The notes below the pieces were generated by a model, which ran no database searches, was not told the DNA's origin, and worked only from the letters and a program-made list of their open reading frames with translations. Positions 9,666-59,340 of a stretch of DNA of 64,000 nt are shown here, one piece after another. The position numbers and the translations under genes are program-made. Position 1 is the stretch's first letter, and the number at the start of each line of letters is the position of its first letter. Source of the stretch: a virus; IMG/VR virus record IMGVR_UViG_3300042260_000483, positions 1 through 64,000 of that record; one strand, given 5' to 3'.

Positions 9666-10373
9666 TTAAATTAAATGGTCTGCCCATATTTTATGTGATA
9701 TTGCTGATGGATGATTTCGTTCTAATAAATCACCACCATTTTGTTTGATATAACTATACATAGTTTCACTTTTAAATTCAGGTGGTAATTGATTCCATAG
9801 TGATTTTAAATCAGTTTGATGTGTTGGTCTTCCATAAGAATCGATTAACGTATCTGGTTCATTAGGAAAATTATATTCATAAAACGTATTAAAAAAGTAA
9901 TATGGTATATCGTTTTTATCTAAAAAAGATGTCAATCCGATTATATGATTAAAAGTTCTGATATATGACGGAATATCTTCTGTTTGATTCAATACGAATT
10001 GGTCTTCGGTAGTTCTGTTTGAATCATTCTCACCCCATTTATCATATCCCACCCACAAACGTTCTTGTTGGTATTTCTCACCTGTCCACCATTCAAATCT
10101 TGTTGGTGATGTCCATCCAATTGTTATGAATAAATTATCAGATTTTACCCAACCCGTTTCTTCACTCCAAACAACTTTATTTTCTAACCAATGTGAAACA
10201 TCTCGCATAGTTTGGCGATAGATATAATCATTCGATACTCCGGCAGATGCGTTATTACAATCTTCCCATCCAAACTGATTTGCTATGTGATGTGAAAATC
10301 TTTCAGTTTGTTTAGTTTCCAATTCTGCACCCCATACTACTGAATCACCATGAGAATATAAAATTGTTTTCAT
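9666..10373 (-). CDS. SGNH/GDSL hydrolase-like protein 1
   Basis: 235 residues. Block I is YSHGDSVVWGAE with the presumed catalytic Ser. Block II corresponds to NNASAGVSNDY and carries the Gly. Block V is LERNHPSAISHKIWADHL with the presumed catalytic His. Such proteins remove or add acyl groups on glycans. No signal peptide is present, so it would act in the cytoplasm or in the virion. The start overlaps the stop of the 10370 glycosyltransferase (ATGA), linking it to sugar chemistry. Confidence 0.7.
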   Translation of the reverse strand: MKTILYSHGDSVVWGAELETKQTERFSHHIANQFGWEDCNNASAGVSNDYIYRQTMRDVSHWLENKVVWSEETGWVKSDNLFITIGWTSPTRFEWWTGEKYQQERLWVGYDKWGENDSNRTTEDQFVLNQTEDIPSYIRTFNHIIGLTSFLDKNDIPYYFFNTFYEYNFPNEPDTLIDSYGRPTHQTDLKSLWNQLPPEFKSETMYSYIKQNGGDLLERNHPSAISHKIWADHLI

Positions 10374-11209
10374 ATTAATTTTTGTTTAATTTTGTTTTTC
10401 TGGTTGTAGGTATTCCAAATTGGATAAAATTTTAAATTATTAGAATTCCACGGAGGAAAAAAACTAAAAAAATGTAATGCTATTTTATCTGTATAATCAT
10501 TTGTATCCATATACCCATTTTCTAATTTACTCAAATCCCAATCAATATCATCCATTGCAGGATTTCGATTTACAAATCCATCTCCAATGTCTAACCATTT
10601 TTCAAAAAAGACAAGATTAAATATAGATTGGTCCCACCAACTATTTCTAGCAAGATGGTATTTGCAATAATAGTAAAGATACGAATTATATAATTTTGTT
10701 AAATAATCAAATTTAATCATATCTGTATGGTATAACATGAAACAAGTTTGAAATGCATCACCATCACCATATTTTTCTAAAATTAAATTCTTCTCTACTA
10801 ATTGTTCATCGGTTAAAATAGAATCATTTTCATAAAAATGTTTTATGAATGAATAACTATCTTTTTTAGTATATAAAAATTCCTTACTTTTTTCTGCTAA
10901 GTTTAGTTCTATTGGATTTAAAAACAAAACATCTAAATCTGAATACAATACCCAATCCCATTTTGAAAAATACTCATCAAACATATACATTTTGTAAAAA
11001 TGTATTGGTGGATTTTCTGGTAATATTGGTGCTCGGAATATATGAACACCGAATTCTTTGAGTTGATTAGTTAATTCAATATCAGTATCATTTGCTACGA
11101 TTAAACAAAATTCACCATCCCATTTTCCCATTTCTAATGAGCTTTCAATAAGTGGTAAAAAATATTTTATATATTCTGAATTTGCTACTGAAACTAATAC
11201 TTTATTCAT
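10370..11209 (-). CDS. glycosyltransferase, GT-A fold with DxD motif
   Basis: 279 residues. The N-terminal Rossmann-like half (KVLVSVANSEYIKYFLPLIESSL) leads to WDWVLYSDLDVLFLNP, a metal-binding DxD placed as in GT8-type enzymes. AFQTCFMLYHTDM and SWWDQSIFNLVF resemble the acceptor-side motifs. It probably transfers a sugar from a nucleotide donor in the cytoplasm. Neighbours (SGNH, DegT-like) indicate an operon for a modified glycan. Confidence 0.75.
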   Translation of the reverse strand: MNKVLVSVANSEYIKYFLPLIESSLEMGKWDGEFCLIVANDTDIELTNQLKEFGVHIFRAPILPENPPIHFYKMYMFDEYFSKWDWVLYSDLDVLFLNPIELNLAEKSKEFLYTKKDSYSFIKHFYENDSILTDEQLVEKNLILEKYGDGDAFQTCFMLYHTDMIKFDYLTKLYNSYLYYYCKYHLARNSWWDQSIFNLVFFEKWLDIGDGFVNRNPAMDDIDWDLSKLENGYMDTNDYTDKIALHFFSFFPPWNSNNLKFYPIWNTYNQKNKIKQKLI

Positions 11210-11211
11210 TT

Positions 11212-11835
11212 TTATTGAAATATTCTTTCATTACTCAAATCTTTATACATCCAACTACCACCACAATGTGCGTTCATTGCATGAATTTTCGGTGAATGGA
11301 ATATTTCCAATCCTTTTATTGCTTGTTCTGGTGTCATATACATATGCCAACCAACACACTCAAATTCATCATCTGCATACATTTTATTCGTATGTCTTCC
11401 ATCGTATATCATTGGTCTTGCCCACTCATTAAACTTCTCATCGTTTGTGAGTATCATACCACCTGTCCCAATATTTAAGATTTTTTTAAGATGAAATGAA
11501 AGTATCATAAAATTTTCGTTATCATACATACCTTCATAGAATGCAGTTGCAGCATCTACTATCGGTGCACCTTCAAATTTATATAACCCACCCCATTCAT
11601 AATCTTCAAATACAGGTTTGTTACCTGAAAGAATTATTTGGTTTGGGACTGAAACATAGGTTCTTGAAGGTATTCCAATTTCTTGTCCTACTATACCTAA
11701 ATAATGTAATACTAACCGAATTGCGTTTGAATTTGAATCACATGCAACTGCGTATTTTGAACCACAATATTTTGCTATTTCAGTTTCAAAATGTGTCACC
11801 CAATCCCATGGGTCATTAATTATATAATTTTCCAT
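11212..11835 (-). CDS. short DegT/DnrJ/EryC1-type aminotransferase
   Basis: About 207 residues from the ATG at 11835 (MENYIINDPWDWV). It keeps the N-terminal half of the PLP-dependent sugar aminotransferases: KYCGSKYAVACDSNSNAI, PSRTYVSVPN, PIVDAATAF. The lysine region is also kept (SFHLKKILNIGTGGMILTND), with a candidate PLP-binding Lys. The family is usually 360-400 residues, and the C-terminal domain is missing. No frameshifted remainder was found downstream, so it may be a minimal enzyme or a decayed one. Confidence 0.7.
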   Translation of the reverse strand: MENYIINDPWDWVTHFETEIAKYCGSKYAVACDSNSNAIRLVLHYLGIVGQEIGIPSRTYVSVPNQIILSGNKPVFEDYEWGGLYKFEGAPIVDAATAFYEGMYDNENFMILSFHLKKILNIGTGGMILTNDEKFNEWARPMIYDGRHTNKMYADDEFECVGWHMYMTPEQAIKGLEIFHSPKIHAMNAHCGGSWMYKDLSNERIFQ

Positions 11836-12781
11836 ATTGTTTTTTTTCAATTTTACAGATTTCAATCATTGGGACCAAATTATTATATACAAATTCTCGC
11901 ATCATTTGTGGAGATGGATGACCCCACCCATTTGGTTGTATTTTTAAATACTCATCATATGTCTTAACTCCATCCCAAGCAAATTCTTGAAATACTGGTG
12001 TATCATTTCTTCTATTATCAATAGTCCATTCTAACAATCCATTATAATTTTTATAGTGCCAGTGATTTGGTGAATCAATTGGTAATTTATCTATATAAGG
12101 TTTTAAAACTTCATACTCTTCAAACCATAATTTTTTTGTAGGAATAGATGAATCATTATTAGGTGCACCGAAGTAACATTCTTTTGCTTCAACTGAATAT
12201 GGATTTCTCATACTCATATAGTAAGTATCAATTGAATGTTCTTTACAAGTTTTTTCTAATAATAACCACATTTCTAACCAATGCATCGTTTGGTTTATGA
12301 TATTATTCCAATTTATATCCAATTCCCAATATTTTATTGCATTTTCTATACCGAAGAATTGCATGGCAGAATCCGGGCCATCGGGTGGAGTGAATCCACC
12401 TGTTAAATAATAAACACCTTTAGTTGTTTCCCAATTTGGATTATAAACTAAAGTATGTCCTAAAAAATGATTTTCTTTTTTAAAATCTTTATGTAAATAT
12501 ATAGCCTGTCTTGTAGGGTCAGACCATTGCGTGAATACTGATATGTTCCAGGGTTTAACTCCTTCTTTAATCAATCTATCGATGTGATATAAAAGTATTC
12601 TACACATGGATACGTTATCATTAGTTGCACCACCATAGTTCAATACTTTATACCCATCGCCCAAATATTCTTGAAGAAAATATGGCCATGATAATCTGTT
12701 ATCATCAGTTGGTTCTAAGTCATTTGGATTTAATCTTACATTATTTGTAAATGAACAACCAGTTGTTAAAACGTATTTCAT
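11816..12781 (-). CDS. SGNH/GDSL hydrolase-like protein 2
   Basis: 321 residues. Block I is VLTTGCSFTNNVRLNPND (Cys replaces Asp before the Ser), followed by VLNYGGATNDNVSMC as block II. Block V is GWGHPSPQMMREFVY. The large tryptophan-rich insertion between blocks is shared only loosely with the other SGNH proteins. It overlaps the aminotransferase start by 20 nt. Esterase or acyltransferase activity is inferred from the fold. Confidence 0.65.
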   Translation of the reverse strand: MKYVLTTGCSFTNNVRLNPNDLEPTDDNRLSWPYFLQEYLGDGYKVLNYGGATNDNVSMCRILLYHIDRLIKEGVKPWNISVFTQWSDPTRQAIYLHKDFKKENHFLGHTLVYNPNWETTKGVYYLTGGFTPPDGPDSAMQFFGIENAIKYWELDINWNNIINQTMHWLEMWLLLEKTCKEHSIDTYYMSMRNPYSVEAKECYFGAPNNDSSIPTKKLWFEEYEVLKPYIDKLPIDSPNHWHYKNYNGLLEWTIDNRRNDTPVFQEFAWDGVKTYDEYLKIQPNGWGHPSPQMMREFVYNNLVPMIEICKIEKKQYGKLYN

Positions 12782-12786
12782 TTTAT

Positions 12787-13569
12787 TTATTTTTTGGAAT
12801 TGTAACCATAATCTTCACCACCATTGCCTACGAAATGACCATTCCAACTTTCTTCTTCATGAAGTTTGTGATGTGAATATTCGTTTGATTTATAAGTGCT
12901 ACGATGTGGTGGATTATCTTTATCTGGTTCTGAAGTAGAAACATAGTAAAAAAATCTGATTGCACATCTACCATACACATCATCAGGACAATCTACTTCA
13001 CTAACGGAATGAACCGGTCCTTTTGGAACATTTTCGTTAATAATAAATCTATTAAATAATGGTGGGACTGAATCTATTATTTTAGAAGATGAATCTAAAT
13101 CAGGGTTTCCACTCCACGTAACGTTATGACCACCCCATTCAGATTTCCAATTGGGAGTTATGTATAATAATGCAGTAAGTTTTCGATGTAACCTAATTCT
13201 ATCATTCCAATTAAAATCATAATGTGGTGAAAGAATTGTTCCTTTTCTCAAAATAGAATAACCTGCACCAACTAAATGTGGGTCTGGTAATAACCCTACA
13301 ATTCCAGTCATATTTTCAAGTTGATATAAGAACTCACCTGAATGCATTATATCGTATGTAACTCGATGTGCAGTTGGTAGTGAAATTAAATCATTGAACT
13401 CTTCCATACGAGAACCTGCTCTTGTAAAAACTGTCCATCCACCTTTCGGAGCGTTCATACACTCTTCATATAGTTTCATACAAGTTTCTTCATCTAAGAA
13501 ATTATCGATTACAACTCTTGGATAGCCTTCTGATTTATTTTTTTCCCACTCTAATTTTTTATTAATCAT
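12787..13569 (-). CDS. 2-oxoglutarate/Fe(II)-dependent oxygenase (prolyl-4-hydroxylase-like)
   Basis: 260 residues. Iron ligands are visible as LSPHYDFNW (H-x-D) and GPVHSVSEV (distal His). The 2-oxoglutarate-binding Arg is in GRCAIRFFYYV. GRKLTALLYI-like and WGGHNVTWSG segments fit the double-stranded beta-helix. These enzymes hydroxylate proteins, nucleotides or small molecules. Phage 2OG oxygenases are common, and context here suggests modification of a sugar or surface protein. Cytoplasmic. Confidence 0.8.
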   Translation of the reverse strand: MINKKLEWEKNKSEGYPRVVIDNFLDEETCMKLYEECMNAPKGGWTVFTRAGSRMEEFNDLISLPTAHRVTYDIMHSGEFLYQLENMTGIVGLLPDPHLVGAGYSILRKGTILSPHYDFNWNDRIRLHRKLTALLYITPNWKSEWGGHNVTWSGNPDLDSSSKIIDSVPPLFNRFIINENVPKGPVHSVSEVDCPDDVYGRCAIRFFYYVSTSEPDKDNPPHRSTYKSNEYSHHKLHEEESWNGHFVGNGGEDYGYNSKK

Positions 13570-13571
13570 AG

Positions 13572-14486
13572 TTATTTATTTAAAAATGATTGCAATTTTG
13601 GTTTTAAATATGTTTCTTCAAACGAAATTTGTACTTGGTTATTTGGGTGCATCCCTAAACGATTATCACCCATTTCTAAATTGTAATCTTTAAATACGGT
13701 TTTATCATAATTATCAATTGTAAATTCATCCAATCCGCCAAATGTTTGATTATCATTTGTATGTAAAATAAATTTATCAAAATCAATGGTATCAAACAAT
13801 ATTTTTATAGGTTCGGATATTTTAGAAATATCAAAATTATTTTTTAAATTTGGTAAATTATAAGTTTTAATACCAGAATAACTATGTTTTAAAAAAGTAT
13901 CATAATACCATCCTTCAATGACGTTACTCATAAAGAAAGCAGAATATTCAATATTATTATTGTTTAAAAAATGCTGAATTATAAGTATAGTTTCAACGTA
14001 TTCCTGAATATGATCAATTATATCTTTTTTATTCGAATATTCAGTTTCATCTTCAATCCATTGTTTAATTTCATATGGAAACTTATCTACATTACCATCG
14101 GAAAAGGTGGTATATAAATTATTATTTAATTTAAAATATCCTTCACGATATGAATCATATATTAAGTTTCCCCAATCTCTAGAATGCATTTTGGGTGAAA
14201 GGTTTTCTAATATGGTATTTACAAATTCAGTTGGAATTCGTTTGGTATTTCTACCTATTTGTGTGCAATCAAATACAATGCGTATATTATCTGCAGAGAA
14301 TCCTATATTTAATGCATGATTAACTAAATGAATAATTAATTCTTTTGTAAATTGTATAGAAGATGCAGGTGCACCGAAGTTTTTTATATCGGTTGAATTG
14401 AAATTAAGTATAGTATCGTTTTTGAAACTATCTAAACCCAATGAGTAACTACACCCGGTTGATATGATTATCTTCCTACTATCCAT
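13572..14486 (-). CDS. SGNH/GDSL hydrolase-like protein 3
   Basis: 304 residues. IISTGCSYSLGLDSF carries the presumed nucleophile, FGAPASS the second block, and LGMHPNNQVQISFEE the terminal His block. The middle is long, Asn/Ile/Asp-rich and diverged. In transcription order it follows a DUF2061 membrane gene, the same order as the SGNH/DUF2061 pair at 33.8-34.9 kb. Confidence 0.6.
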   Translation of the reverse strand: MDSRKIIISTGCSYSLGLDSFKNDTILNFNSTDIKNFGAPASSIQFTKELIIHLVNHALNIGFSADNIRIVFDCTQIGRNTKRIPTEFVNTILENLSPKMHSRDWGNLIYDSYREGYFKLNNNLYTTFSDGNVDKFPYEIKQWIEDETEYSNKKDIIDHIQEYVETILIIQHFLNNNNIEYSAFFMSNVIEGWYYDTFLKHSYSGIKTYNLPNLKNNFDISKISEPIKILFDTIDFDKFILHTNDNQTFGGLDEFTIDNYDKTVFKDYNLEMGDNRLGMHPNNQVQISFEETYLKPKLQSFLNK

Positions 14487-14707: not shown

Positions 14708-15111
14708 TACCAACTAATTTCCCAATCCTTAAATTCATCTGCGATACAATCAATTTTGTAATCTTTTCTACCACCAACTTTAGATTGAATTTGATTTTTT
14801 GCAGTATTTCGGATTCCGTTTAATCCGTGTGTAAGTAGTAATTTATTACCTGCATCTACTCCTGCTCTTGCATTAGATTCGTTCGTCCAAATATGTAAAT
14901 TCATCTGTGATAAAACTACAATTGCTCTGATAAATTCCCCATCCAATTCAAAATCACCTGATTCTAAAATTAAATTAATATCATGAACAATATCTTTGAT
15001 TTCATCACCATATTCAGATTTATGTTCGGTGATGAATACTTCTTTTAACTGAATAATTGATAATCTATCAATTAGTTCTCCCAATGTGGGTAAATATTTT
15101 CTTGTTTTCAT
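14707..15111 (-). CDS. conserved hypothetical protein, 134 aa
   Basis: MKTRKYLPTLGELIDRLSIIQLKEVFITEHKSEYGDEI is a motif I associate with small proteins beside glycosyltransferases in bacteria and phages, but I know no function for it. All-helical prediction, with conserved-looking NLHIWTNESNARAG. It overlaps neighbours by 1 nt on both sides. Confidence 0.6.
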   Translation of the reverse strand: MKTRKYLPTLGELIDRLSIIQLKEVFITEHKSEYGDEIKDIVHDINLILESGDFELDGEFIRAIVVLSQMNLHIWTNESNARAGVDAGNKLLLTHGLNGIRNTAKNQIQSKVGGRKDYKIDCIADEFKDWEISW

Positions 15112-15695
15112 TATATATTATTTGGGTTTATATCAATATTAGTTTTAGTTCCATCTGGTTGTGAATATACTATATGGGTTGGTTTCAATACAAAAGCACT
15201 AACTCCTCTTTTCAATTCATCAACATACTTTTTACCCAATCCCGGTTTCAAATATCCAATTGTCATATGTGGATGGTAATCTGGATATGAGGTGGTATGT
15301 GGTAATTTAGATAATTCTTTATTTGTTGTATGTAAGAACTCAACTCCATCAAATTGTGGTGCTGGTGGATATGCTACATCTAATTTTAATACATCAAATT
15401 TTTCGTTTTCAAAAAGTGATGGGTTATGGACTAAGCATTTACCAAAGGTAATTCCATTAAGAATTTCCACAATCGTTTTCAACTCAACTTCTTCATGTAA
15501 CCCATACAATAAAGTGCAATGAGGTTCGGTTTCCAAGCCATAACCACCATTATCATCTGCAGTATATAAATCTTCGGGTTTTATGTTATTTTGAAATGAT
15601 ACAAAATCCTTAATAGGATTAAAATATAACATTACACACCCATATTCATATACAGGTTTAGTTTCTTCTTTTAATAAATCGGTTAATCGTATCAT
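15111..15695 (-). CDS. 2H phosphoesterase with N-terminal capsid-targeting-like tag
   Basis: 194 residues. Two H-x-T motifs, EPHCTLLYGLH (His59, Thr61) and YHPHMTIGYL (His143, Thr145), define the 2H phosphoesterase/2'-5' RNA ligase-like fold. Relatives hydrolyse cyclic or 2'-5' phosphodiester bonds. Phage members include T4 Acb1, which destroys CBASS cyclic nucleotides. The first ten residues (MIRLTDLLKE) match the tag on the 38-44 kb proteins, predicting removal at K-E/E and packaging in the head. The fold is well supported; packaging and target are inference. Confidence 0.8.
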   Translation of the reverse strand: MIRLTDLLKEETKPVYEYGCVMLYFNPIKDFVSFQNNIKPEDLYTADDNGGYGLETEPHCTLLYGLHEEVELKTIVEILNGITFGKCLVHNPSLFENEKFDVLKLDVAYPPAPQFDGVEFLHTTNKELSKLPHTTSYPDYHPHMTIGYLKPGLGKKYVDELKRGVSAFVLKPTHIVYSQPDGTKTNIDINPNNI

Positions 15696-28627: not shown

Positions 28628-29551
28628 TTAAATATACTTAATTTTATTTTTAATGTTTTTTTTCTCTAAAAAATCAATTATTGATTTTCCAATATACTGA
28701 TGTTGTATTAAAGTTGGATGAGCATTTTGTGTGTTTGGGAATTCATCAAGAATTCTTTTATACTGAAACGTAGATTCCCACTCTGAATATTTTGAATACG
28801 ATTTGTCATCATATCCAATTAATGGAATAACTCTTTCTAAAAAATACTCATTTTTAAATAACGATTCTCTAGCCATATTATCCCAAGAATCAATAAAAAA
28901 TACAGATACACCATCGGATTCCAACTTCTTAAAGTAAGTATCAAACAAATATTCTAAATGTATTTTTGTTTTTGAAATTTCAATGCATTTAACCGAATCA
29001 ATTAATTCATCAATCGGTAATTCAAAATCAACATTGTATTTAATGGAAAATTGAGTTTTTAAGTGTTGTTGATATTCTGTTAAATTACCATAATACATTT
29101 GATTGATAATTTGATAAATTACATCGAATGTAATTGGCCAGGATTTATCATACTTAGCACTAACTTCACATATATTACATTTGCAATTGAAATTACTAGA
29201 ATCTTCTTCAAAACATATATCATTTCGATTGAATGCTGAAAATTGATATATGAGGATTTCGGGTTTGTTGATTGAATTAAATACAGAATTTAATTTTACC
29301 ATTAAACTACGAAATGATCCACCATTCTGATGATCAATTGATAAATTTGATTTGAAATGTTTAGTTACCAGATAGGGGAATCGGTTAGTTTCTCTAAACA
29401 AAATAGATTCCGAATCTTCAATTGGCTGGATTTCTTGCCAAGTTGATTTTAGATTACGTTGCGTTATCCATTTTTGATTAGATGAATACAATTCTAACCC
29501 TTCACCCCAAGTAAAGGAATCACCGAAAAAAGCAATATTCCTATACCTCAT
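28628..29551 (-). CDS. SGNH/GDSL hydrolase-like protein 4
   Basis: 307 residues. NIAFFGDSFTWGEGLELYSSNQ carries the canonical GDS nucleophile block. The terminal block is TQNAHPTLIQHQYIGKSIIDFL. An internal Cys pair (CKCNICEVS) could bind zinc. The opening GDSFTWGEGL closely matches that of the 58579-59340 protein (GCSFTWGESL), so these two look like true paralogs. Confidence 0.7.
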   Translation of the reverse strand: MRYRNIAFFGDSFTWGEGLELYSSNQKWITQRNLKSTWQEIQPIEDSESILFRETNRFPYLVTKHFKSNLSIDHQNGGSFRSLMVKLNSVFNSINKPEILIYQFSAFNRNDICFEEDSSNFNCKCNICEVSAKYDKSWPITFDVIYQIINQMYYGNLTEYQQHLKTQFSIKYNVDFELPIDELIDSVKCIEISKTKIHLEYLFDTYFKKLESDGVSVFFIDSWDNMARESLFKNEYFLERVIPLIGYDDKSYSKYSEWESTFQYKRILDEFPNTQNAHPTLIQHQYIGKSIIDFLEKKNIKNKIKYI

Positions 29552-33803: not shown

Positions 33804-34682
33804 TTATATAACTTTTGGTATAATATATTTTGTGTTTTTGTAGGTTTCCCAATCTATTTCTTTAATTGGTGTATCCAACATTCCATCGTTTACCAATTTA
33901 TTATAAATTACATTTGCAATCAGTTTATTACCCTTTAACCCAATGTGCATATCGTTTGATTGATGACCAGTTTCATCTTTAATTGTTAATTTATTTACAA
34001 ATGAAAAATCCATCATATCTTTTGTTTGTTGAAAATATTTTCCATCTCCGAATAATAATTCACATGATTTTCGATACTCATGATTCTGTGGTGTCATTGT
34101 AAAATAATAATTTATATTTTTGGATTCTAAATATGCAAGAAACAAATCTACCATTCTTCTATGTTCATCAACTTCATTTTTAATATCAAAAAAATCAGTT
34201 AAATAAGTTTCAAAAAAAGGGTCATAGGTTTCTAATAATTTAATAGTTTCATCCGAATCATAATTGTAATGATTTGCAGTTGCTAAGAAAACTGCTTTAT
34301 CATTTTCATCAATCTGATAATTACAAATTATATAATCATTTATTTTCTTAAAGAAAAATTCTCTTCTACCTAATCCAGTAATTTCAAATATAAAAATATG
34401 TTCATCTTTATTAAAACCATGTGAATCAATAATTTCATATGATTTTCTAATTACTCTTTCATTACCACATCCTTGTTTTCCAAAATTATTAACCTTTACA
34501 TTTTTTGAAACTAACTTTTGTATTTGTCCTGGATATGAAAAGTTAAAAATGGTTTTTTCTTCGTTTGTTATATGGCCATACAATTTATTAATGAACCACC
34601 CTTGTGTAGGTGAATCGAATTCGAAACCACCTCCAGCAGTGTTTGATGTTCCAAAACAATTTATGTATTTAATTTTTGTCAT
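33804..34682 (-). CDS. SGNH/GDSL hydrolase-like protein 5
   Basis: 292 residues. YINCFGTSNTAGGGFEFDSP is block I (Ser in GTSN), NNFGKQGCGNERVI block II, and QSNDMHIGLKGNKLIANVIY supplies the terminal Asp-x-His. It overlaps the DUF2061 start by 14 nt, repeating the SGNH/DUF2061 arrangement at 13.6-14.7 kb. Near the sulfate-activation genes, so it may act on the same glycan. Confidence 0.65.
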   Translation of the reverse strand: MTKIKYINCFGTSNTAGGGFEFDSPTQGWFINKLYGHITNEEKTIFNFSYPGQIQKLVSKNVKVNNFGKQGCGNERVIRKSYEIIDSHGFNKDEHIFIFEITGLGRREFFFKKINDYIICNYQIDENDKAVFLATANHYNYDSDETIKLLETYDPFFETYLTDFFDIKNEVDEHRRMVDLFLAYLESKNINYYFTMTPQNHEYRKSCELLFGDGKYFQQTKDMMDFSFVNKLTIKDETGHQSNDMHIGLKGNKLIANVIYNKLVNDGMLDTPIKEIDWETYKNTKYIIPKVI

Positions 34683-34890: not shown

Positions 34891-35270
34891 TATCCTTTAT
34901 TTTCATCGTAGGTTAATGAACCATCTGGTTTCATATGACCAGTTCTGATTGCAGTTCCGCTAATTGATGCAATATCAGTTGGTGGTTCGTGGTATATGAC
35001 ATCATACCCAACTCCTCTACCATAATTTACTGATTCGATATCTGGTATGATTGAAATGTATAATCTACCCGTAGATAAATAACCTTTTAATTCTTCTGTC
35101 AAATTATCTAATATTTCTTTTGCAGTTTTGGGATTGTTATCATCTCTATCAACATCTCTAATTGCAATCCAAACATTATTACCTTTTTGGAATTGTTGAT
35201 CAATTAACCATTGATGACCAGAATGCCAGTTTTGCCATCTACCGATGTAAAGTGCGTATTTTTTATTCAT
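34890..35270 (-). CDS. small nucleotidyltransferase (HxGH / ISGTxxR)
   Basis: 126 residues. YIGRWQNWHSGHQWLI (His16-Ser-Gly-His19) is the nucleotide-binding signature of the nucleotidylyltransferase superfamily. SISGTAIRTG (103-110) is the second conserved motif. The pattern is close to NMN adenylyltransferases, but ISGTxxR is also seen in ATP sulfurylases. It sits between APS kinase and DUF2061 with 1-nt overlaps. Options: a minimal ATP sulfurylase-like enzyme, a sugar adenylyltransferase pairing with the HldE-like kinase, or an NMNAT. Function open. Confidence 0.75.
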   Translation of the reverse strand: MNKKYALYIGRWQNWHSGHQWLIDQQFQKGNNVWIAIRDVDRDDNNPKTAKEILDNLTEELKGYLSTGRLYISIIPDIESVNYGRGVGYDVIYHEPPTDIASISGTAIRTGHMKPDGSLTYDENKG

Positions 35271-35740
35271 TATAATTTTTTTAATTTATTCAAATGATTT
35301 ATTAATTTTGAAAATGAAATATCCGGTGAATCTTTTGTAGTATTCACATCGATGAAATTTACTTGAGGGGATTCGTAATCTTTAACGTGGAAATGATCAC
35401 GTTCTCTAGGTTCGGTTGTGTGGACGTAAATCTCAACCATATCTGGTCCGATTTTATCTTTCAACTCTTCCCGTAGTTCGATGAATGGTGCAACTAATGA
35501 AACGACAACATCACATCTATTTAAGTGTAGATATTCAACTATTGTCTGTGCAGTTCTGATATTATTCTTTCTACCTTCTTCAGAATAATCTTTATTATTA
35601 GTAATTTCACGCAGATGATCACCATCTAAATGAAATACGTTTTTACGCCAATTGCGTTTTTCTGTTTCTAAAAACTTATGTAACTTTTTACCTAAGACAG
35701 TTTTACCTGCTCCTGGTTGTCCTGTAAACCAATATATCAT
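35270..35740 (-). CDS. cysC: adenylylsulfate (APS) kinase
   Basis: 156 residues, slightly short for CysC. Walker A WFTGQPGAGKTVLGKKL, then FHLDGDHLREITNNKDYSEEGRKNNIR (APS-binding DGD and R-x-x-N-I-R), VVSLVAPFIELREEL and MVEIYVHTT. It makes PAPS from APS and ATP in the cytoplasm. First gene of a three-gene sulfation module ending in DUF2061. The sulfotransferase-like gene at 17.5 kb is the likely consumer. Confidence 0.85.
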   Translation of the reverse strand: MIYWFTGQPGAGKTVLGKKLHKFLETEKRNWRKNVFHLDGDHLREITNNKDYSEEGRKNNIRTAQTIVEYLHLNRCDVVVSLVAPFIELREELKDKIGPDMVEIYVHTTEPRERDHFHVKDYESPQVNFIDVNTTKDSPDISFSKLINHLNKLKKL

Positions 35741-37655: not shown

Positions 37656-38204
37656 TTAGTGTTTTATTTGCTGAACTCTCCACTTAACATTCTTACTACG
37701 CAACATTTGTTTTGCTGCTTCAACATTCTTTTCGGAATCATCTGCAAAGTAAATATCATCATACCCATCGTTATCAATTTTCTTCTCAATCCAATCTGCT
37801 TTATCTTTTGGATTATTAGAACCTAACGCAACTACAAATACTTTGTTTGAATTGATTCCAATATCTTTTAAGTAATTTTTAATTGGTTGATATGCAGCAC
37901 GGGCAGTTAAAATATACACACCTTCTCCACCACTAACTCTAATTATGTTTTTAAGAATATTTGTTATTTTAGTAATTTCTTCTGGGTTCTTAACAGATTC
38001 AAAATCTTTAAAATCATATACATCACCTGGTCTTTCAGTATAAACTGCGTATTGACCGGGAGTTAATTTAGATTTTTTACCATCTGAATGTGTAATGTAT
38101 ATAAATGATGTTGTTTTTACTAGAGTATCATCAAAATCGAATATCCTCAATTTTTTTGATTCTACGAATAAACTTCTACTTATCATGTCTGTTAATTTTA
38201 TCAT
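37656..38204 (-). CDS. HAD-family phosphatase with N-terminal tag
   Basis: 182 residues. LRIFDFDDTLVKT is HAD motif I (Asp-x-Asp-x-Thr), VYILTARAAYQPIKNYL motif II, NPKDKADWIEKK the Lys motif, and DIYFADDSEKNVEAA motif IV. This is the set seen in phage polynucleotide 3'-phosphatase and 5'-nucleotidase domains. The first residues MIKLTDMISRSLFVESKK match the shared tag, with a possible cut at F-V-E/S. The fold is clear. Delivery with the virion and the substrate (nucleic-acid 3' phosphate or nucleotide) are inferred. Confidence 0.8.
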   Translation of the reverse strand: MIKLTDMISRSLFVESKKLRIFDFDDTLVKTTSFIYITHSDGKKSKLTPGQYAVYTERPGDVYDFKDFESVKNPEEITKITNILKNIIRVSGGEGVYILTARAAYQPIKNYLKDIGINSNKVFVVALGSNNPKDKADWIEKKIDNDGYDDIYFADDSEKNVEAAKQMLRSKNVKWRVQQIKH

Positions 38205-39007
38205 TATAAATTGTCCAATTTCTTTTGAGCTTTTACTATATTTTGTTGAGCGGTTTTAATTGCATCTTGTTTCCAACTTATGTTTTTCTTTTTCCAAAAT
38301 ACTATACTATCTTCTTCCGATTGTTTCTTTTGTTGATTGTAATATTTTTCATCATTATTGTAATTTTGAGCAACACCTCTTTTAACAATTTCTTCCCAAC
38401 TTGGCCAGATGAATGGTTTCCCCGATACGTTATCACCATCATTAACCATCTTCAAAATTTGTTTATCATTGAATTTAGAATTTTTATCAATTAAATTCTG
38501 ATTTAATTCAATAACTTTTTTATTATGTTCAATTTCCTTTTGTAATTTCTCACCTTTGGATAATTTAACCAATTCAGCTTTCAACTTTTGAGTTTCAATA
38601 GATTGGCCAGTTTGTGGTAAGGTTGTTTTAGTTAAATAACGAAAGTGTAATTTCTGAATGTTATACCCACCTGCATAAATTACTTCGGTGTTGAATGGGT
38701 ATTTATTACCATCTCTTTCGATTATACAACTGATTTGAAATGAACCTTTAGATGAATTTTTTACTTTAACCTCACTCATTTTATCAGTAGATAATGTATA
38801 TTTTTCCAAAGCCTTAACCATATCATATTTTAAGGTGATTTCGGTGTAATATGCATCATAATCACTAAACACTTTATCTTCTTTTTTATACCTTTGTTTA
38901 GTATCTTCGATGATATCAGCAATTAAGGGTTTTAATTCTGCCAATAATCGTTTGATTAGTGGATTTTTAGTTTCTCCCTCATTTAGTAAATCTCTTAATT
39001 TTATCAT
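38204..39007 (-). CDS. tagged protein with basic C-terminal coiled coil, 267 aa
   Basis: The tag is MIKLRDLLNEGETKN, with predicted processing after L-N-E. The middle is beta-rich (KGSFQISCIIERDGNKYPFNTEVIY). The C-terminal 100 residues are charged helices (KKQSEEDSIVFWKKKN, QQNIVKAQKKLDNL) suited to binding DNA or protein. It overlaps the HAD phosphatase gene by 1 nt. Enzymatic motifs are absent. Class A promoter directly upstream. Confidence 0.6.
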   Translation of the reverse strand: MIKLRDLLNEGETKNPLIKRLLAELKPLIADIIEDTKQRYKKEDKVFSDYDAYYTEITLKYDMVKALEKYTLSTDKMSEVKVKNSSKGSFQISCIIERDGNKYPFNTEVIYAGGYNIQKLHFRYLTKTTLPQTGQSIETQKLKAELVKLSKGEKLQKEIEHNKKVIELNQNLIDKNSKFNDKQILKMVNDGDNVSGKPFIWPSWEEIVKRGVAQNYNNDEKYYNQQKKQSEEDSIVFWKKKNISWKQDAIKTAQQNIVKAQKKLDNL

Positions 39008-39840: not shown

Positions 39841-40200
39841 TTAATATTTCCTTTCAGGATCTGGATGGGGTGTTGTATCGATATATTGGTCTACTTCTTT
39901 TTTATCATATAGATTTTTAACAAATTCGTATCCACCATGATGTATCGAATCATGTGATTGTGGTTTACCTGCCAATTCTGCATTGTTGTGGTCAATATCA
40001 TGTTGATGCATAATAGTTCCCATTTTGTGAAATGTAATTTCTTCCCAATCTTTTAATGAATCATTGAATATGTGATATAATCTACTTTTTTCCCAACCCT
40101 TAGCAATAGTTTCTTCATCTGCAAATGGCCAGTTCCACCCCACCTCACCACAATTGTAGGTAGGACTTATTTCTTGTAATATATCAACCAATTTAATCAT
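39841..40200 (-). CDS. tagged hypothetical protein, 119 aa
   Basis: Tag MIKLVDILQEISPTYN with predicted cut after L-Q-E. The remainder is rich in His, Asp and Trp (MGTIMHQHDIDHNNAELA, SHDSIHHGGYEF), a composition suited to metal binding. No known family. It overlaps the 40200 gene by 1 nt. Confidence 0.62.
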   Translation of the reverse strand: MIKLVDILQEISPTYNCGEVGWNWPFADEETIAKGWEKSRLYHIFNDSLKDWEEITFHKMGTIMHQHDIDHNNAELAGKPQSHDSIHHGGYEFVKNLYDKKEVDQYIDTTPHPDPERKY

Positions 40201-40547
40201 TATAATCTCTTTAATAAATCATCCATATTAATCTCAAAAGCATAACCTGCTCCACTATATGTCTTATCAAAGATGACTTTTAATTTTAATTTTTTTTCTA
40301 ATTGTTGTTTTAATAATTCCAAAAAATCAGCATCGCCACCTTTACCCATTCCTCTTTTAGCTAAGGTATATTGAGCAAGATTTCCACTTAATTTTTGTTT
40401 TATTGAATCAATTCCATCCACATCTTTCATTGATGATGGTAATAAAATAATTTTACCATTTTTTGGTATCGGTGTAAATTTTACATTTCCTGACCAATGT
40501 GGAAACTCAAACCCATTACTTTCTTTTAATATATCTTTTAATTTCAT
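40200..40547 (-). CDS. tagged hypothetical protein, 115 aa
   Basis: Tag MKLKDILKESNGFEFP with predicted cut after L-K-E. The mature part would be a small basic domain (GDADFLELLKQQLEKKLKLKVIFDKT) ending DDLLKRL. Not recognised. Part of a run of five adjacent genes between 39.8 and 41.5 kb, four of them tagged. Confidence 0.62.
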   Translation of the reverse strand: MKLKDILKESNGFEFPHWSGNVKFTPIPKNGKIILLPSSMKDVDGIDSIKQKLSGNLAQYTLAKRGMGKGGDADFLELLKQQLEKKLKLKVIFDKTYSGAGYAFEINMDDLLKRL

Positions 40548-40890: not shown

Positions 40891-41451
40891 TTAAAATGGT
40901 CCGTTATATGGAAGCTGTTCACCACTTTCAGTATAAGCAAATCCATCATAAATACTAACTTTACTTTTTGGTTCTTTCATTTTTATACTAATCGATAATA
41001 CCGATGGTTTACCATTTGGTAATTCGTAGTGTAGTATTCTAATGAATTTTTCTAAACCTTTGACAATTCTTTCCGTAGATACTTTATGAAAATCTGCCAT
41101 TTTTTGAATAGATTTGTTATTCTTTTCTAAATGTTTCATAAAATCTCTTTTAGCATCAGCATCTTTTACGATTTTTTGAGTTGCCTCATTTACTGATTCA
41201 TTTCTTCCAAAATAAGAATGTTCGTAATGTTCTAACCCATATTTTCGAATTGTATCATCGTCCAATAAACGAGAATTTACTGTCCCTAATCTTTTACCTT
41301 TGTAATAGACAGACCAGTTTCCTTGTGGAGATGCATCGACAGTGATATTTTTTAAATCTTTAATACCTCTATCGTGAATTTGGATAGCATCTAAAAACTT
41401 AGCTGCCTTTGGAGTTAAACTCACTTCGTTTAAAATATCTTGTAATTTCAT
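40891..41451 (-). CDS. tagged protein with internal S-V-N-E site, 186 aa
   Basis: Tag MKLQDILNEVSLTPKA with predicted cut after L-N-E. A second site GRNESVNEATQK lies near residue 92. It would split the protein into two roughly 80-95-residue units: a beta-rich one with WSVYYKGKRLGTVNSR, and a basic helical one with a short beta tail. First gene of the tag operon; candidate late motif 20 nt upstream and an AAAGGAA ribosome-binding site. Confidence 0.65.
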   Translation of the reverse strand: MKLQDILNEVSLTPKAAKFLDAIQIHDRGIKDLKNITVDASPQGNWSVYYKGKRLGTVNSRLLDDDTIRKYGLEHYEHSYFGRNESVNEATQKIVKDADAKRDFMKHLEKNNKSIQKMADFHKVSTERIVKGLEKFIRILHYELPNGKPSVLSISIKMKEPKSKVSIYDGFAYTESGEQLPYNGPF

Positions 41452-42917: not shown

Positions 42918-44168
42918 TTAGACAAATATTCTTACGGAAAGAATTACATCATTACCGATTTTTAAATTATTTATTTTATGCTTTTCTAAATCGTAAGATG
43001 GATTACCTATTGTGTTTGCTTTTGCAATTACACCATTCTTAATAAAATGTGGTTGTAGTCCAGAGTAATTATCATCTCTAAATATGAATACATCCGTTGG
43101 ATTTTCTTTTGAGATTTTAATTATTTTCATCAAACCTTGTTTACCAATGAAACACCCACCTTCACATTTAGTTCCACCATAAGTTTTACCTTTTTGGAAT
43201 GCTTCGTTTACTGATTCGTTTCTTTTATCTAATGAAAAATATATTTGATTTTTAACTTTTTGAAATGAATTAACTGCTGCGGTATTATTACCAATGAATC
43301 CCATATTCAATCCAATTTCAGATGAACGAACACCTTTTTTGGCTAATGTCATAATTTGTTTTGCAACATCTTTTGATAAAATTTCTTTGGGAGTTTCTAC
43401 GTGAATCAGATGTTTTAATGATTCGTTTACTGATTCTTTGATTACAACGATTCCGTTTTCATCACCTCTCTTAGCAGTTTTGATACCGGCTTCGATTGAA
43501 TCTAATTTATGTCTAACTTTAGTTGGTGAACTTACTTTTCCTGATGGGTCAGTTCTAGTCAATGTTGCAGTGGTATCATCCATATCAACAATCTTATAGT
43601 ATTTACCACCATCAATTCCTTTTAAACGAGTAAACCCTTGTCCTTTAATAACCGAACCTATTTTTAAATCAGTTGGATATTTTACTTCGTTTACGGATTC
43701 TTCAAACTCACCCTTCATATCTTTGTGTGCTTGTCTTGCTGCAGCACCACCCACTATTCTTGATGCGGGGTCTGCGTTTTTCAAAGCAGCAATCACACTA
43801 ATTTGTTTTTGTAGTAAATTGTTATATAATTCAACGTATTCTTCTTTGGAAACTAATTTATTTTTCAACAAACTTAATATAAGTGCAGGTTCTTTAGTAC
43901 GAATTCTATGGTCTTGTTGAATAGTTCCGTTTAATCTAGCCAAATCATTAGCAACAACTATCATCTTTTGCATTTTCTTACCATACATAGGATTACCTTT
44001 ACCTGGTACTTTTGCATATGCCATTGCCAAATCTAATATTTGAACTGGTGTCATATTTCTCTTAGTATATTGCTCACTACCTAAGTTATATGATGCTTCT
44101 GTTAGAGATTGTTTAAATTTTTCTCTAATTGTTTCTTTTATTGCCGATTTTACTTGTGATAACTTCAT
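42918..44168 (-). CDS. tagged putative polyprotein with three S-V-N-E sites
   Basis: 416 residues. The N-terminus MKLSQVKSAIKETIREKFKQ leads to SLTE/ASYN. Three nearly identical internal sites follow: FEESVNE/VKYP (near 162), KESVNE/SLKH (near 250) and RNESVNE/AFQKG (near 327). Each separates an apparently independent domain: a helical one with a conserved KVPGKGNPMYGKK, a beta-rich basic one, a helix-turn-helix-like one (GVRSSEIGLNMGFIGNNTAAVNSF) and a C-terminal beta domain. I read this as a polyprotein matured by the head protease. Good AAAGGAA site; late motif 36 nt upstream. Confidence 0.7.
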   Translation of the reverse strand: MKLSQVKSAIKETIREKFKQSLTEASYNLGSEQYTKRNMTPVQILDLAMAYAKVPGKGNPMYGKKMQKMIVVANDLARLNGTIQQDHRIRTKEPALILSLLKNKLVSKEEYVELYNNLLQKQISVIAALKNADPASRIVGGAAARQAHKDMKGEFEESVNEVKYPTDLKIGSVIKGQGFTRLKGIDGGKYYKIVDMDDTTATLTRTDPSGKVSSPTKVRHKLDSIEAGIKTAKRGDENGIVVIKESVNESLKHLIHVETPKEILSKDVAKQIMTLAKKGVRSSEIGLNMGFIGNNTAAVNSFQKVKNQIYFSLDKRNESVNEAFQKGKTYGGTKCEGGCFIGKQGLMKIIKISKENPTDVFIFRDDNYSGLQPHFIKNGVIAKANTIGNPSYDLEKHKINNLKIGNDVILSVRIFV

Positions 44169-44232: not shown

Positions 44233-44802
44233 TTATTTACCTAACAATTTTTTAATATTATCGTAGATATATTCATTACCTTTATCAGTTAAATGATTGG
44301 TATAGCCTCGATGTTTTAAAAATATTTCTTCGAATTTGATTACTTTATCTGAATAAAATGAATCAAAGAAGGTTATATGTGTTGCTGATGGGATTTCTTT
44401 GTATATCTTATCAAAAATCAAATCATTAATAAATACAAAATAATCTGCGTAAAATATTTCAGAATAAAAATCATATGCAGTTTTCATTATTGGATTTTCT
44501 AAATGTTCTTTGACATCTGAAAAGATAATATCACAATCATTATGAAGTGAATCACCCTTATGAATAGGATGTTCTTCGATTGGTATTCTGTATGCTGATG
44601 TATGTGATACAATTATATGGTCATAGTTTTTGGGATTCACCGATTGTAATTGTAAATACAATTTATATTCACTAACTCCTGCTTGTGCTAAATTAGTTAC
44701 ATCGTAATCAAATTCTAATTTATTTACCCAACCCAACGAGTTTGATTTACTACTCCAATCAGCAGCAAAACTATCTCCAATTATTAAGAGTGTTTCTTTC
44801 AT
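44233..44802 (-). CDS. SGNH/GDSL hydrolase-like protein 6
   Basis: 189 residues, the smallest of the set. ETLLIIGDSFAADWSSKSN is block I, NLAQAGVSEYKLYL block II, HIIVSHTSAYR a central strand, and YTNHLTDKGNEYIYDNI the terminal His block. It overlaps the next SGNH gene by 32 nt, so the two are translated together. Confidence 0.68.
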   Translation of the reverse strand: MKETLLIIGDSFAADWSSKSNSLGWVNKLEFDYDVTNLAQAGVSEYKLYLQLQSVNPKNYDHIIVSHTSAYRIPIEEHPIHKGDSLHNDCDIIFSDVKEHLENPIMKTAYDFYSEIFYADYFVFINDLIFDKIYKEIPSATHITFFDSFYSDKVIKFEEIFLKHRGYTNHLTDKGNEYIYDNIKKLLGK

Positions 44803-45577
44803 CTATGTAACTTTTTAGTATTTCAAATATTTTATTATGGCCATTTAACGATGGGTGTAATTCTTTCATAGTTGGTGGTAATGGAAATTTATCAATCCAC
44901 TTAAATTCATCATGAATTATGTTTTTATTTTCAATTAAATATTTTTCAACTAAAATATTAGTTTCATCGTTTAGTAGAGGAAATTTTACAATATGTTTTT
45001 CTAAAAATTGTAAATTTATATTGGTAAAATCTAAAACATCTCTCCAAATTAGTATTGAAAATTTTATATGTGAATTTGCATTTATAAAATCGTTGAGTTT
45101 TATAAAAACTGCATTCATAAATTCACGCGGATTATAGTTTATAATCCATTCGATAATTTTGTTTTTTATTTCGGTATTATCATTTTTATTATTAGTTAAA
45201 AATGATTCAATTTCAGATGGTGTTCTTGGTATTTTTTCTGATGCAGTAGAATTAGCATGAAAAAATCTATCAAAGTAGTTGTAAATGCCAGATAATTCAA
45301 ATACTATGTATTCAACATCAGATAAATCTTCTTGTGAAAGTAAATATAACGCTTCTGCAGGAGAACCACCTGCTCTAGAGAGATTTATTTCTTCAACATT
45401 TAAATATTTTGAAAGTTGTTTTGAAAATCGATTTTCTTCTATGAATATGGTATCTTCGATGCTAGGGTCGAATGGAAATCGGAAATCTATATTTTCTTCA
45501 AATTCATATACATCTCTAAACCAATGTAACCCAACCCCATGTGTATTTGATGCTCCTAAAAATATTGCTTTTTTCAT
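44771..45577 (-). CDS. SGNH/GDSL hydrolase-like protein 7
   Basis: 268 residues. KAIFLGASNTHGVGLHWFRD (Ser in GASN) is block I, EINLSRAGGSPAEALYLLS block II, and MKELHPSLNGHNKIFEIL block V with His. Paired with protein 6 in one operon. Confidence 0.68.
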   Translation of the reverse strand: MKKAIFLGASNTHGVGLHWFRDVYEFEENIDFRFPFDPSIEDTIFIEENRFSKQLSKYLNVEEINLSRAGGSPAEALYLLSQEDLSDVEYIVFELSGIYNYFDRFFHANSTASEKIPRTPSEIESFLTNNKNDNTEIKNKIIEWIINYNPREFMNAVFIKLNDFINANSHIKFSILIWRDVLDFTNINLQFLEKHIVKFPLLNDETNILVEKYLIENKNIIHDEFKWIDKFPLPPTMKELHPSLNGHNKIFEILKSYIDERNTLNNWR

Positions 45578-57957: not shown

Positions 57958-58586
57958 CTCTGAATTGTTTCGTAATAATCGTTTTGTTTTTCCTGTCTTT
58001 GAATTTCTTTTGGATGGTATAAACACCAATCTTCTTCAGTTGGGAAATTTGAAAATGTGGTGTAACCTGTGATGGTTTCGTGAACTTTATTCATCCACAC
58101 AACGTCATCGGTTCTTTTGTAAATTCTCAATTGGTAATCGGGAAAATTTACCCAACCTTTTTCATTTACATTCCATCCCCATTTTTTAATGTGAGATTCG
58201 GTTAATCCTTCAACGGTATTGATACGTGGAACGAATACTACATCTACTGGGTTGGATTCTAATACTTGAGGTAAATACTCAATTAATGTCTGATGTGGAA
58301 TTTCATCTGCATCAATTTGAAAAATATAATCCTTACTACAATGTGATTTTAGATTATTTTTAAAAGTTGCAAAATCATTATTAAGTGGAAATGAAATAAG
58401 TGTATGATTATCTTGCATCATATCCATTACATTCAAATATTCTTTGACTTCTTGAGTAGCAGATGTTGAATCATATTGAATTACAACTTCATCTTCTGGT
58501 CTTATATGTAATTGTAAAAAGTTTAGTAATTTAACTATTTCTTCTAATTCATTACAAACCGTTATTGCGTAACTTATACTAATCAT
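57954..58586 (-). CDS. glycosyltransferase, GT2-like
   Basis: 210 residues. ISISYAITVCNELEEIVKLLNFL is the GT2 opening and KDYIFQIDADEIPHQTLIEYL carries the Asp-x-Asp-Glu site. The C-terminal half has YQLRIYKRTDDVVWMNKVHETI, common in lipopolysaccharide-type GT2 enzymes. Overlaps SGNH protein 8 by 8 nt. Confidence 0.78.
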   Translation of the reverse strand: MISISYAITVCNELEEIVKLLNFLQLHIRPEDEVVIQYDSTSATQEVKEYLNVMDMMQDNHTLISFPLNNDFATFKNNLKSHCSKDYIFQIDADEIPHQTLIEYLPQVLESNPVDVVFVPRINTVEGLTESHIKKWGWNVNEKGWVNFPDYQLRIYKRTDDVVWMNKVHETITGYTTFSNFPTEEDWCLYHPKEIQRQEKQNDYYETIQR

Positions 58587-59340
58587 TTTTTTTAATTTCT
58601 TTGTAAATACTATTTGCTATTATGTGATGACCTTCTAAAATTAAATGATTATCACCTTTATTTAAATTCTTATCAGAAAAATAATTTTCAATAACCAACA
58701 ACGGATGATTTTCACTCAAATCATCGGTTGATGTGTATTCGTTTTCTTTATATTTTAAGGTTACAAAGTTTGAATATAATTTATGAGTTTTTAAAACTTC
58801 AACTGAATCTTTGGGGTATGCTATTATATAAACTAATACTCCATTTGATTCTAAAAAAGTTTTAAATTCATATAATTTATCATAGAAATAAGTGTATGAA
58901 TCTTTAAGAATAGTATCATTATCCAACCCAAGCACTTGTCTTTCATATTCCAACGTAGAATAATCAGTTTTTTCTAATATCTCACCCGATGGTAATTTAA
59001 ATATAAATGGGTCTCTAGAAAATTCTGTAAGTTGAAATACGCAAATTTTATAATTTTCTAAATTAGAAGGATTGTTATAGAATTCAGTAGCAAAAGTTAA
59101 TGATTCCATATTAGAACCACCATTTCTTGATTTAGTAATATATTCAACTCCTAATTGGTTAGCCAATAAAGCAGGCCAACGATTTTGGTATATAAAATTT
59201 AATTGAGCATCATCTAATGTTTTAAGTGAATCTGGAAACTGAGGTCTATCCTGTTTCCATACCACCGAATCTAAACCTGAAAAGAATTGTAATGATTCTC
59301 CCCAAGTGAATGAACATCCTAATGCTAGTATATTATTCAT
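58579..59340 (-). CDS. SGNH/GDSL hydrolase-like protein 8
   Basis: 253 residues. NNILALGCSFTWGESLQFFSG is block I, closely like protein 4. SRNGGSNMESLTFA is block II, and KGDNHLILEGHHIIANSIY supplies the terminal Asp/His. It lies within the glycosyltransferase operon. Confidence 0.7.
   Translation of the reverse strand: MNNILALGCSFTWGESLQFFSGLDSVVWKQDRPQFPDSLKTLDDAQLNFIYQNRWPALLANQLGVEYITKSRNGGSNMESLTFATEFYNNPSNLENYKICVFQLTEFSRDPFIFKLPSGEILEKTDYSTLEYERQVLGLDNDTILKDSYTYFYDKLYEFKTFLESNGVLVYIIAYPKDSVEVLKTHKLYSNFVTLKYKENEYTSTDDLSENHPLLVIENYFSDKNLNKGDNHLILEGHHIIANSIYKEIKKND

Follow-up and report, generated by a model that had tools for sequence, protein, structure and literature searches.

Bacteriophage T4 injects the internal proteins IP1-3, which inhibit type IV restriction (PMC12373910). 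The T4 proteins IPI, IPII, IPIII, and Alt begin with a peptide of about ten residues that has hydrophobic side chains at positions 4, 7, and 8 and an L/I-x-E cut site; IPII and IPIII both start with MKTYQEFIAE/A (a slash marks the cut). Residues 4 and 7 of the tag function mainly in targeting and residues 8 and 10 in processing, and cleavage follows the rule L/I-x-E (PMC9026906). The anti-CBASS nuclease Acb1 (T4 gp57B; FBB1 Acb1, PDB 7t26 and 7t27) is a 2H enzyme with a HxT/HxT tetrad, and its base-stacking residues are Y12, W74, and F107 (PMC9117128). Other 2H domains belong to polyvalent proteins or are fused to MuF or portal proteins; the fused domains are predicted to be injected and may degrade immune nucleotides (Iyer 2017, PMC5512222; Iyer 2022, PMC9503650). 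One such fusion, of MuF with 2H in gp18 of Arthrobacter phage Wilde, has been confirmed here.

The stretch of viral DNA analysed here (the window; 64,000 nucleotides, positions 1 to 64,000 of IMG/VR record IMGVR_UViG_3300042260_000483) encodes a 2H phosphoesterase that resembles Acb1 in its tetrad and fold and starts with a tag resembling those of the T4 internal proteins (Table 1). The candidate cargo is a phosphoesterase, whereas that of T4 is a restriction inhibitor or an ADP-ribosyltransferase. It has the superfamily, the predicted virion delivery, and the putative counter-defence against nucleotide signals in common with the 2H domains of MuF/portal fusions and polyvalent proteins; unlike the MuF/portal fusions, it is a stand-alone protein with a predicted cleavable targeting tag. 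The reading as a whole, in which a packaged and injected stand-alone 2H enzyme destroys a nucleotide alarm signal, is plausible but falls somewhat short of an even chance.

Table 1 Features of the window discussed in the text, with a slash at the predicted cut position of each tag.
Feature	Coordinates	Strand	Basis
2H phosphoesterase gene	15111..15695	-	ORF, PHROG/Pfam matches, predicted structure
N-terminal tag MIRLTDLLKE, similar to capsid-targeting sequences; the prohead protease is predicted to cut it after E10 (L-K-E/E)	15666..15695	-	dialect and register tests
First HxT motif H59-C60-T61	15513..15521	-	sequence; invariant in alignment of 38
F95, invariant aromatic, aligned with base-stacking Acb1 W74	15411..15413	-	alignment of 38, hhalign
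K104, invariant, in family signature FENEKFDVLK, aligned with T4 Acb1 V83	15384..15386	-	
Second HxT motif H143-M144-T145, inside YPDYHPHMTIGY	15261..15269	-	sequence; invariant in alignment of 38
HAD / polynucleotide-kinase-phosphatase-like gene, weaker tag MIKLTDMISRSLFVE/S	37656..38204	-	phrog_415 E=8e-8; tag score 8.7
Gene with tag MIKLRDLLNE/G	38204..39007	-	dialect score; 82% identity to tagged gene of relative G003
Gene with tag MIKLVDILQE/I	39841..40200	-	dialect score
Gene with tag MKLKDILKE/S	40200..40547	-	dialect score
Gene with tag MKLQDILNE/V	40891..41451	-	dialect score; 87% identity to tagged gene of G003
Gene with divergent N-terminus MKLSQVKSAIKETIREKFKQSLTE/A	42918..44168	-	similarity to tagged G003 gene

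The 2H open reading frame starts with ATG, encodes 194 residues, and overlaps each of its neighbours by a few base pairs, as in a coupled operon. The phage is large, and its host is probably a flavobacterium-like bacterium. The protein matches PHROG 755 (E = 1.3e-7), which also contains T4 57B, and the Pfam families 2_5_RNA_ligase2 (6e-4) and Acb1 (9e-4); the matches are weak but consistent with each other. Scanning of viral contigs with the protein retrieved 80 related loci at 31–70% identity. Relatives of the family are also encoded by Planctomycete and Acidobacteria contigs (L165-L168). H59, T61, H143, T145, F95, K104, Y140, and Y148 are unchanged across an alignment of 38 relatives. The two H-x-T motifs and the tag, from which the original prediction started, are present, and all four catalytic residues are invariant.

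The AlphaFold2 model of the protein (mean pLDDT 89, pTM 0.84) has a duplicated 2H-type fold, which together with the invariant motifs places it in the 2H superfamily. The top matches of the model in the PDB, determined using Foldseek, are all 2H enzymes: Usb1, which ranks first, BCSR5 phage Acb1, LigT, poxvirus cGAMP phosphodiesterase, plant CPDase, and FBB1 Acb1. Since 2H enzymes of every kind are matched, the fold indicates a 2H protein and not its substrate. The fold search, with Usb1 in first place, was therefore rejected as a discriminator between Acb1 and RNA enzymes; from the proposed comparison with Acb1 and 2'-5' RNA ligase-like structures the 2H fold emerged, and a preference for Acb1 did not. 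A phmmer search of the PDB with the single 2H sequence gave matches at chance level only, and PADLOC made no assignment for the gene. In its surroundings, Rfam found no match, and scans for promoters and terminators gave no better signal than shuffles.

The tag MIRLTDLLKE shares with MKTYQEFIAE the hydrophobic residues at positions 4, 7, and 8 and the L/I-x-E site at positions 8–10, although the letters of the two differ. L4, L7, L8, and E10 therefore stand in the exact register of the T4 capsid-targeting sequence. The 2H protein of the window has all the features of such a sequence: an N-terminal peptide of about 10–19 residues that carries the hydrophobic side chains for targeting and includes an L/I-x-E site.

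Scoring matrices for the tag dialects of three phage lineages were trained on the tags of other genes, with 2H genes excluded. The 2H N-terminus ranks fifth of 126 in its own genome, the four above it being training members, and it outscores 25,200 of 25,200 shuffled N-termini and 317 of 317 internal methionine starts of the window's phage. The 2H tags of G000 and G003 score 21.7 and 20.7 in the dialect MIKLxDLLxE, that of G006 scores 37.9 in MKHIKLFEEFxxE, and that of G010 scores 17.6 in MNLQExxxRIxxMMG. These own-dialect scores are matched by no shuffled N-terminus and no internal methionine, and the cross-dialect scores of the same N-termini are all negative. The homologues written in the dialect of their own phage start with MKHIKLFEEFVTE in G006 and MELNEQLTKIKTMMG in G010; the 2H gene of G006 lies within a run of about 12 unrelated genes, all of which start with the MKHIKLFEEFxxE-type dialect. 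The T4-register pattern is present at 23 of the 38 N-termini of the family (shuffles: mean 2.1, maximum 9), and the 2H copy of a distant 635-kb phage starts with MKLKKYKQFIKE/S. One subclade of 2H relatives (L054-L073, including L071, as well as L075 and L077) lacks the tag, so that the tag counts as an accessory for delivery rather than a part of the enzyme.

Seven of 14 related records encode a gp21-like S77 prohead protease of the T4 type, among them the 288-kb nearest relatives G002 (1.7e-27) and G003 (1.4e-28). The window's phage is represented by an 86-kb fragment, and a search of it revealed neither a protease nor a portal or capsid gene. The fragment is largely collinear with G003, with approximately 78–91% identity in the best stretches, and ends short of the head operon; packaging is therefore judged from the relatives. 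In G003, the portal and protease genes are followed by two tagged genes, one further gene, and then the gene for the major capsid protein. The protease gene of G006 has a tagged neighbour (FEQFIFE/A). The 42918..44168 product of the window is, in its C-terminal half, 74% identical over 171 residues to a tagged G003 gene located between the prohead protease and the major capsid protein. The window's phage resembles T4 in having unrelated candidate cargo with a common tag, and its relatives resemble T4 in the S77 protease; packaging in the window's phage is a prediction. The T4 register, the dialect of the phage itself, the S77 protease, and the tagged genes of the head operon together support packaging and injection well, if indirectly, and it is likely that the 2H protein is loaded into the head and injected with the DNA, as had been proposed.

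In the mechanism that we favour, residues 1–10 would probably bind the prohead core, like the T4 capsid-targeting sequence, and the S77 prohead protease would probably cleave after LKE-10, so that the mature enzyme begins at E11. By analogy to T4, the mature 2H enzyme would enter the cell together with the DNA. Alternatively, the tag could serve something other than packaging of an active enzyme, such as binding to the assembly core only, to a membrane, or to a partner, with the enzyme acting in the infected cell once it is expressed. The untagged relatives indicate that the enzyme is able to work without a tag, T4 Acb1 is devoid of an L/I-x-E cut site, and the 2H gene is located outside the head operon and, as originally noted, outside the main tag block, with approximately 22 kb between it and the remaining tagged genes at 37.7–44.2 kb of the fragment. 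However, a non-packaging tag is quite improbable in view of its register and dialect, its co-occurrence with the protease, and the tagged genes that adjoin protease and capsid genes in relatives. No published virion proteomics of tagged relatives was found, and the paper on Molly and Colly, isolated Maribacter phages related to that of the window, has none; the 2H protein of Molly is annotated from a start downstream of the tag region.

Comparison of the window family with the Acb1 alignment using hhalign gave a probability of 96.7% (E 4e-10) over a region spanning both motifs, with a BCSR5-type Acb1 relative 95.7%, and, in a separate run, with five ThpR proteins 78.0% (2e-5); these alignments are small and the probabilities rough. 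The value for E. coli ThpR alone is 5.7%. Because of the small alignments, the nearer score of the window protein to Acb1 than to ThpR/LigT is a lean and not proof. Y18, F95, and Y137 align with the base-stacking Y12, W74, and F107 of Acb1, the register of Y18 being less certain. Among the 38 relatives, position 18 is Tyr in 28 and Phe in two, position 95 is Phe in all, and position 137 is Tyr or Phe in 37; the window family thus has aromatic residues where Acb1 stacks bases. At the second motif, both share Y/F-x-D-Y-x-P-H-x-T-x-x-Y, which in FBB1 Acb1 reads YPDYRPHITLSY. By contrast, the alignment stops short of E141, the specificity residue that contacts adenine, and of the W147 lid of Acb1, and the C-terminus of the window protein is visibly different.

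Assignment of the protein to Acb1 (PF23474) was rejected at 19.5 bits, below the curated Pfam cut-off of 27 (T4 57B scores 202.7), and assignment to ThpR/LigT (TIGR02258) at 13.8 bits, below the curated cut-off of 65.7. Grouping with the T4/KVP40/BCSR5-type Acb1 proteins was rejected by the tree, in which Acb1 and BCSR5-like proteins form one group (93/93), ThpR a clade of its own (100/99), and the window protein belongs to another group of 32 rows (95/82), together with some bacterial and virion-fused relatives. The score below the cut-off and the separate clade imply that the window 2H protein is not an Acb1, though it may act like one. The anti-CBASS role originally proposed is a reasonable guess: the profile comparison, the stacking aromatics, and a tagged Tad3 nearby in related phages favour it, whereas the distance from the Acb1 family and the unalignable C-terminal specificity and lid region speak against it. 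Nothing specific in the analysis supports the 2'-5' oligoadenylate that was proposed as the other target.

Provided that the protein is packaged, the chance that it would destroy a small nucleotide alarm signal is close to even. The most likely substrate would be a CBASS-type cyclic di- or trinucleotide, attacked via its ribose 2'-OH in metal-independent HxT/HxT chemistry as in Acb1, and the signal would be removed ahead of any phage gene expression. It is improbable that the packaged enzyme has another substrate, such as ADP-ribose 1'',2''-cyclic phosphate, 2'-5' oligoadenylate, a cyclic mononucleotide, or RNA (as a Usb1-like RNase). Enzymes with the 2H fold act on all of these, the structures of Usb1 and the plant Appr>p phosphodiesterase match equally with Acb1, and K104 and the signature FENEKFDVLK are particular to the window family; however, no positive evidence points to any single alternative, and the aromatic positions of Acb1 are conserved. 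Signal destruction is thus the favoured function, at a little less than an even chance, and RNA repair comes second.

ThpR/LigT RNA 2',3'-cyclic phosphodiesterases share the 2H fold and tetrad with the window protein, and ThpR/CPDase-type 2H enzymes open RNA 2',3'-cyclic phosphate ends. An injected enzyme with this activity could heal the ends of tRNAs cut by host defence ribonucleases and so enable their repair, a role proposed in jumbo-phage surveys (PMC7824862). In the nearest relatives (L001-L003), an untagged gene for a HAD_SAK_2 RNA-repair-type phosphatase is positioned just upstream (next but one) of 2H, and in Maribacter phage Molly a HAD_SAK_2 gene is located approximately 4 kb upstream. 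These genes, together with the RNA ligases encoded by most large relatives, make RNA end-healing a live rival of signal destruction. A tagged AAA_33 kinase in G006 and the weakly tagged HAD/PNK-like gene of the window, which could be a second injected enzyme acting on nucleic-acid ends or nucleotides, also favour it. By contrast, the ligases are not adjacent to 2H, the four examined all lack a tag, and a search found none in G000, G009, G011, and Molly; the HAD_SAK neighbours are untagged, and none adjoins 2H in the window. The window 2H profile is more distant from ThpR, and linkage of packaged 2H domains to ligases has been disputed (Iyer 2017, PMC5512222). We consider RNA end-healing unlikely, though a serious competitor of signal destruction.

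At six loci of the MKHIKLFEEF lineage (L012-L015, L018, and L021), the first or second gene upstream of tagged 2H encodes an equally tagged Tad3 homologue, and tagged Tad3 occurs in a seventh related phage as well. The homologues match PF25185, 'Type I Thoeris inhibitor', with E = 8e-19 to 5e-22. In the window's own clade, Tad3 was not found. The co-tagged Tad3 is the best contextual support for the 2H protein as putative anti-defence cargo. Tad3 homologues with a MKKIKLFEEFLxE tag are located at L014 6916-7680, L012 6929-7678, L018 6895-7659, L273 857-1594 (minus strand), and L271 682-1440, and those of G008 and G025 are without a tag of this type. Tagged AAA_33 / zeta-toxin-like kinases occur in the same block as tagged 2H (L014 9807-10526, L012 11084-11803), and DUF5824 (PF19141) proteins recur as tagged cargo (L012 8789-9346, L033 1790-2491).

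Tags in the T4 register are present at seven of 51 distinct N-termini of true Acb1 proteins (shuffles: mean 1.4, maximum 6). The Acb1 start of G034, MIRSFSEFITE/A, fits a strict pattern that otherwise occurs at just two N-termini and is absent from all 1,360 internal methionines. Therefore, Acb1 itself may be head cargo in some phages. Tagged true Acb1 proteins of large T4-like phages include those at L255 4001-4453 (MLKSFSEFTE/A), L262 4001-4438 (MIRSFSEFITE/A), L264 (MKTVKEFLTE/E), and L177 1429-1959 (...TDFITE/A). In T4, acb1 (57B) directly adjoins ipI (NC_000866 73591-74410; L082 2592-3411), and the Acb1 N-terminus MMEFKDFST resembles MKTFKEFTS of IPI, but without the L/I-x-E cut site.

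As far as is known, the T4-type injected proteins with a defined target in host defence act against restriction enzymes, which they block. It is possible, if rather doubtful, that large T4-like phages load a tagged signal-disabling kit composed of 2H enzymes of the window family and Thoeris inhibitors of the Tad3 type, with true Acb1 added in certain lineages. Such a kit, with its tag spelled differently by each phage lineage, would disarm nucleotide-based immunity from injection onward, and injected erasers of alarm nucleotides or blockers of Thoeris would counter second-messenger immunity before transcription. With the tag dialects, it would then be possible to catalogue the head cargo of thousands of uncultivated phages by sequence alone, including hitherto unrecognised anti-defence genes. 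A literature search found no paper joining anti-CBASS with virion packaging. Capsid-targeted stand-alone 2H enzymes with lineage-specific tags appear to be new, as do the co-tagging of 2H with Tad3 and the presence of tags in the T4 register on a subset of true Acb1 proteins.

The window also contains repeated open reading frames with a GxSxT/GDS-like N-terminus (SGNH-hydrolase-like) at 9666-14486, 28628-29551, 33804-34682, 44233-45577, and 58579-59340. They are positioned near glycosyltransferase-like genes, and an APS-kinase-like gene is located at 35270-35740; together, these genes possibly form a set for capsule or virion sugar modification.
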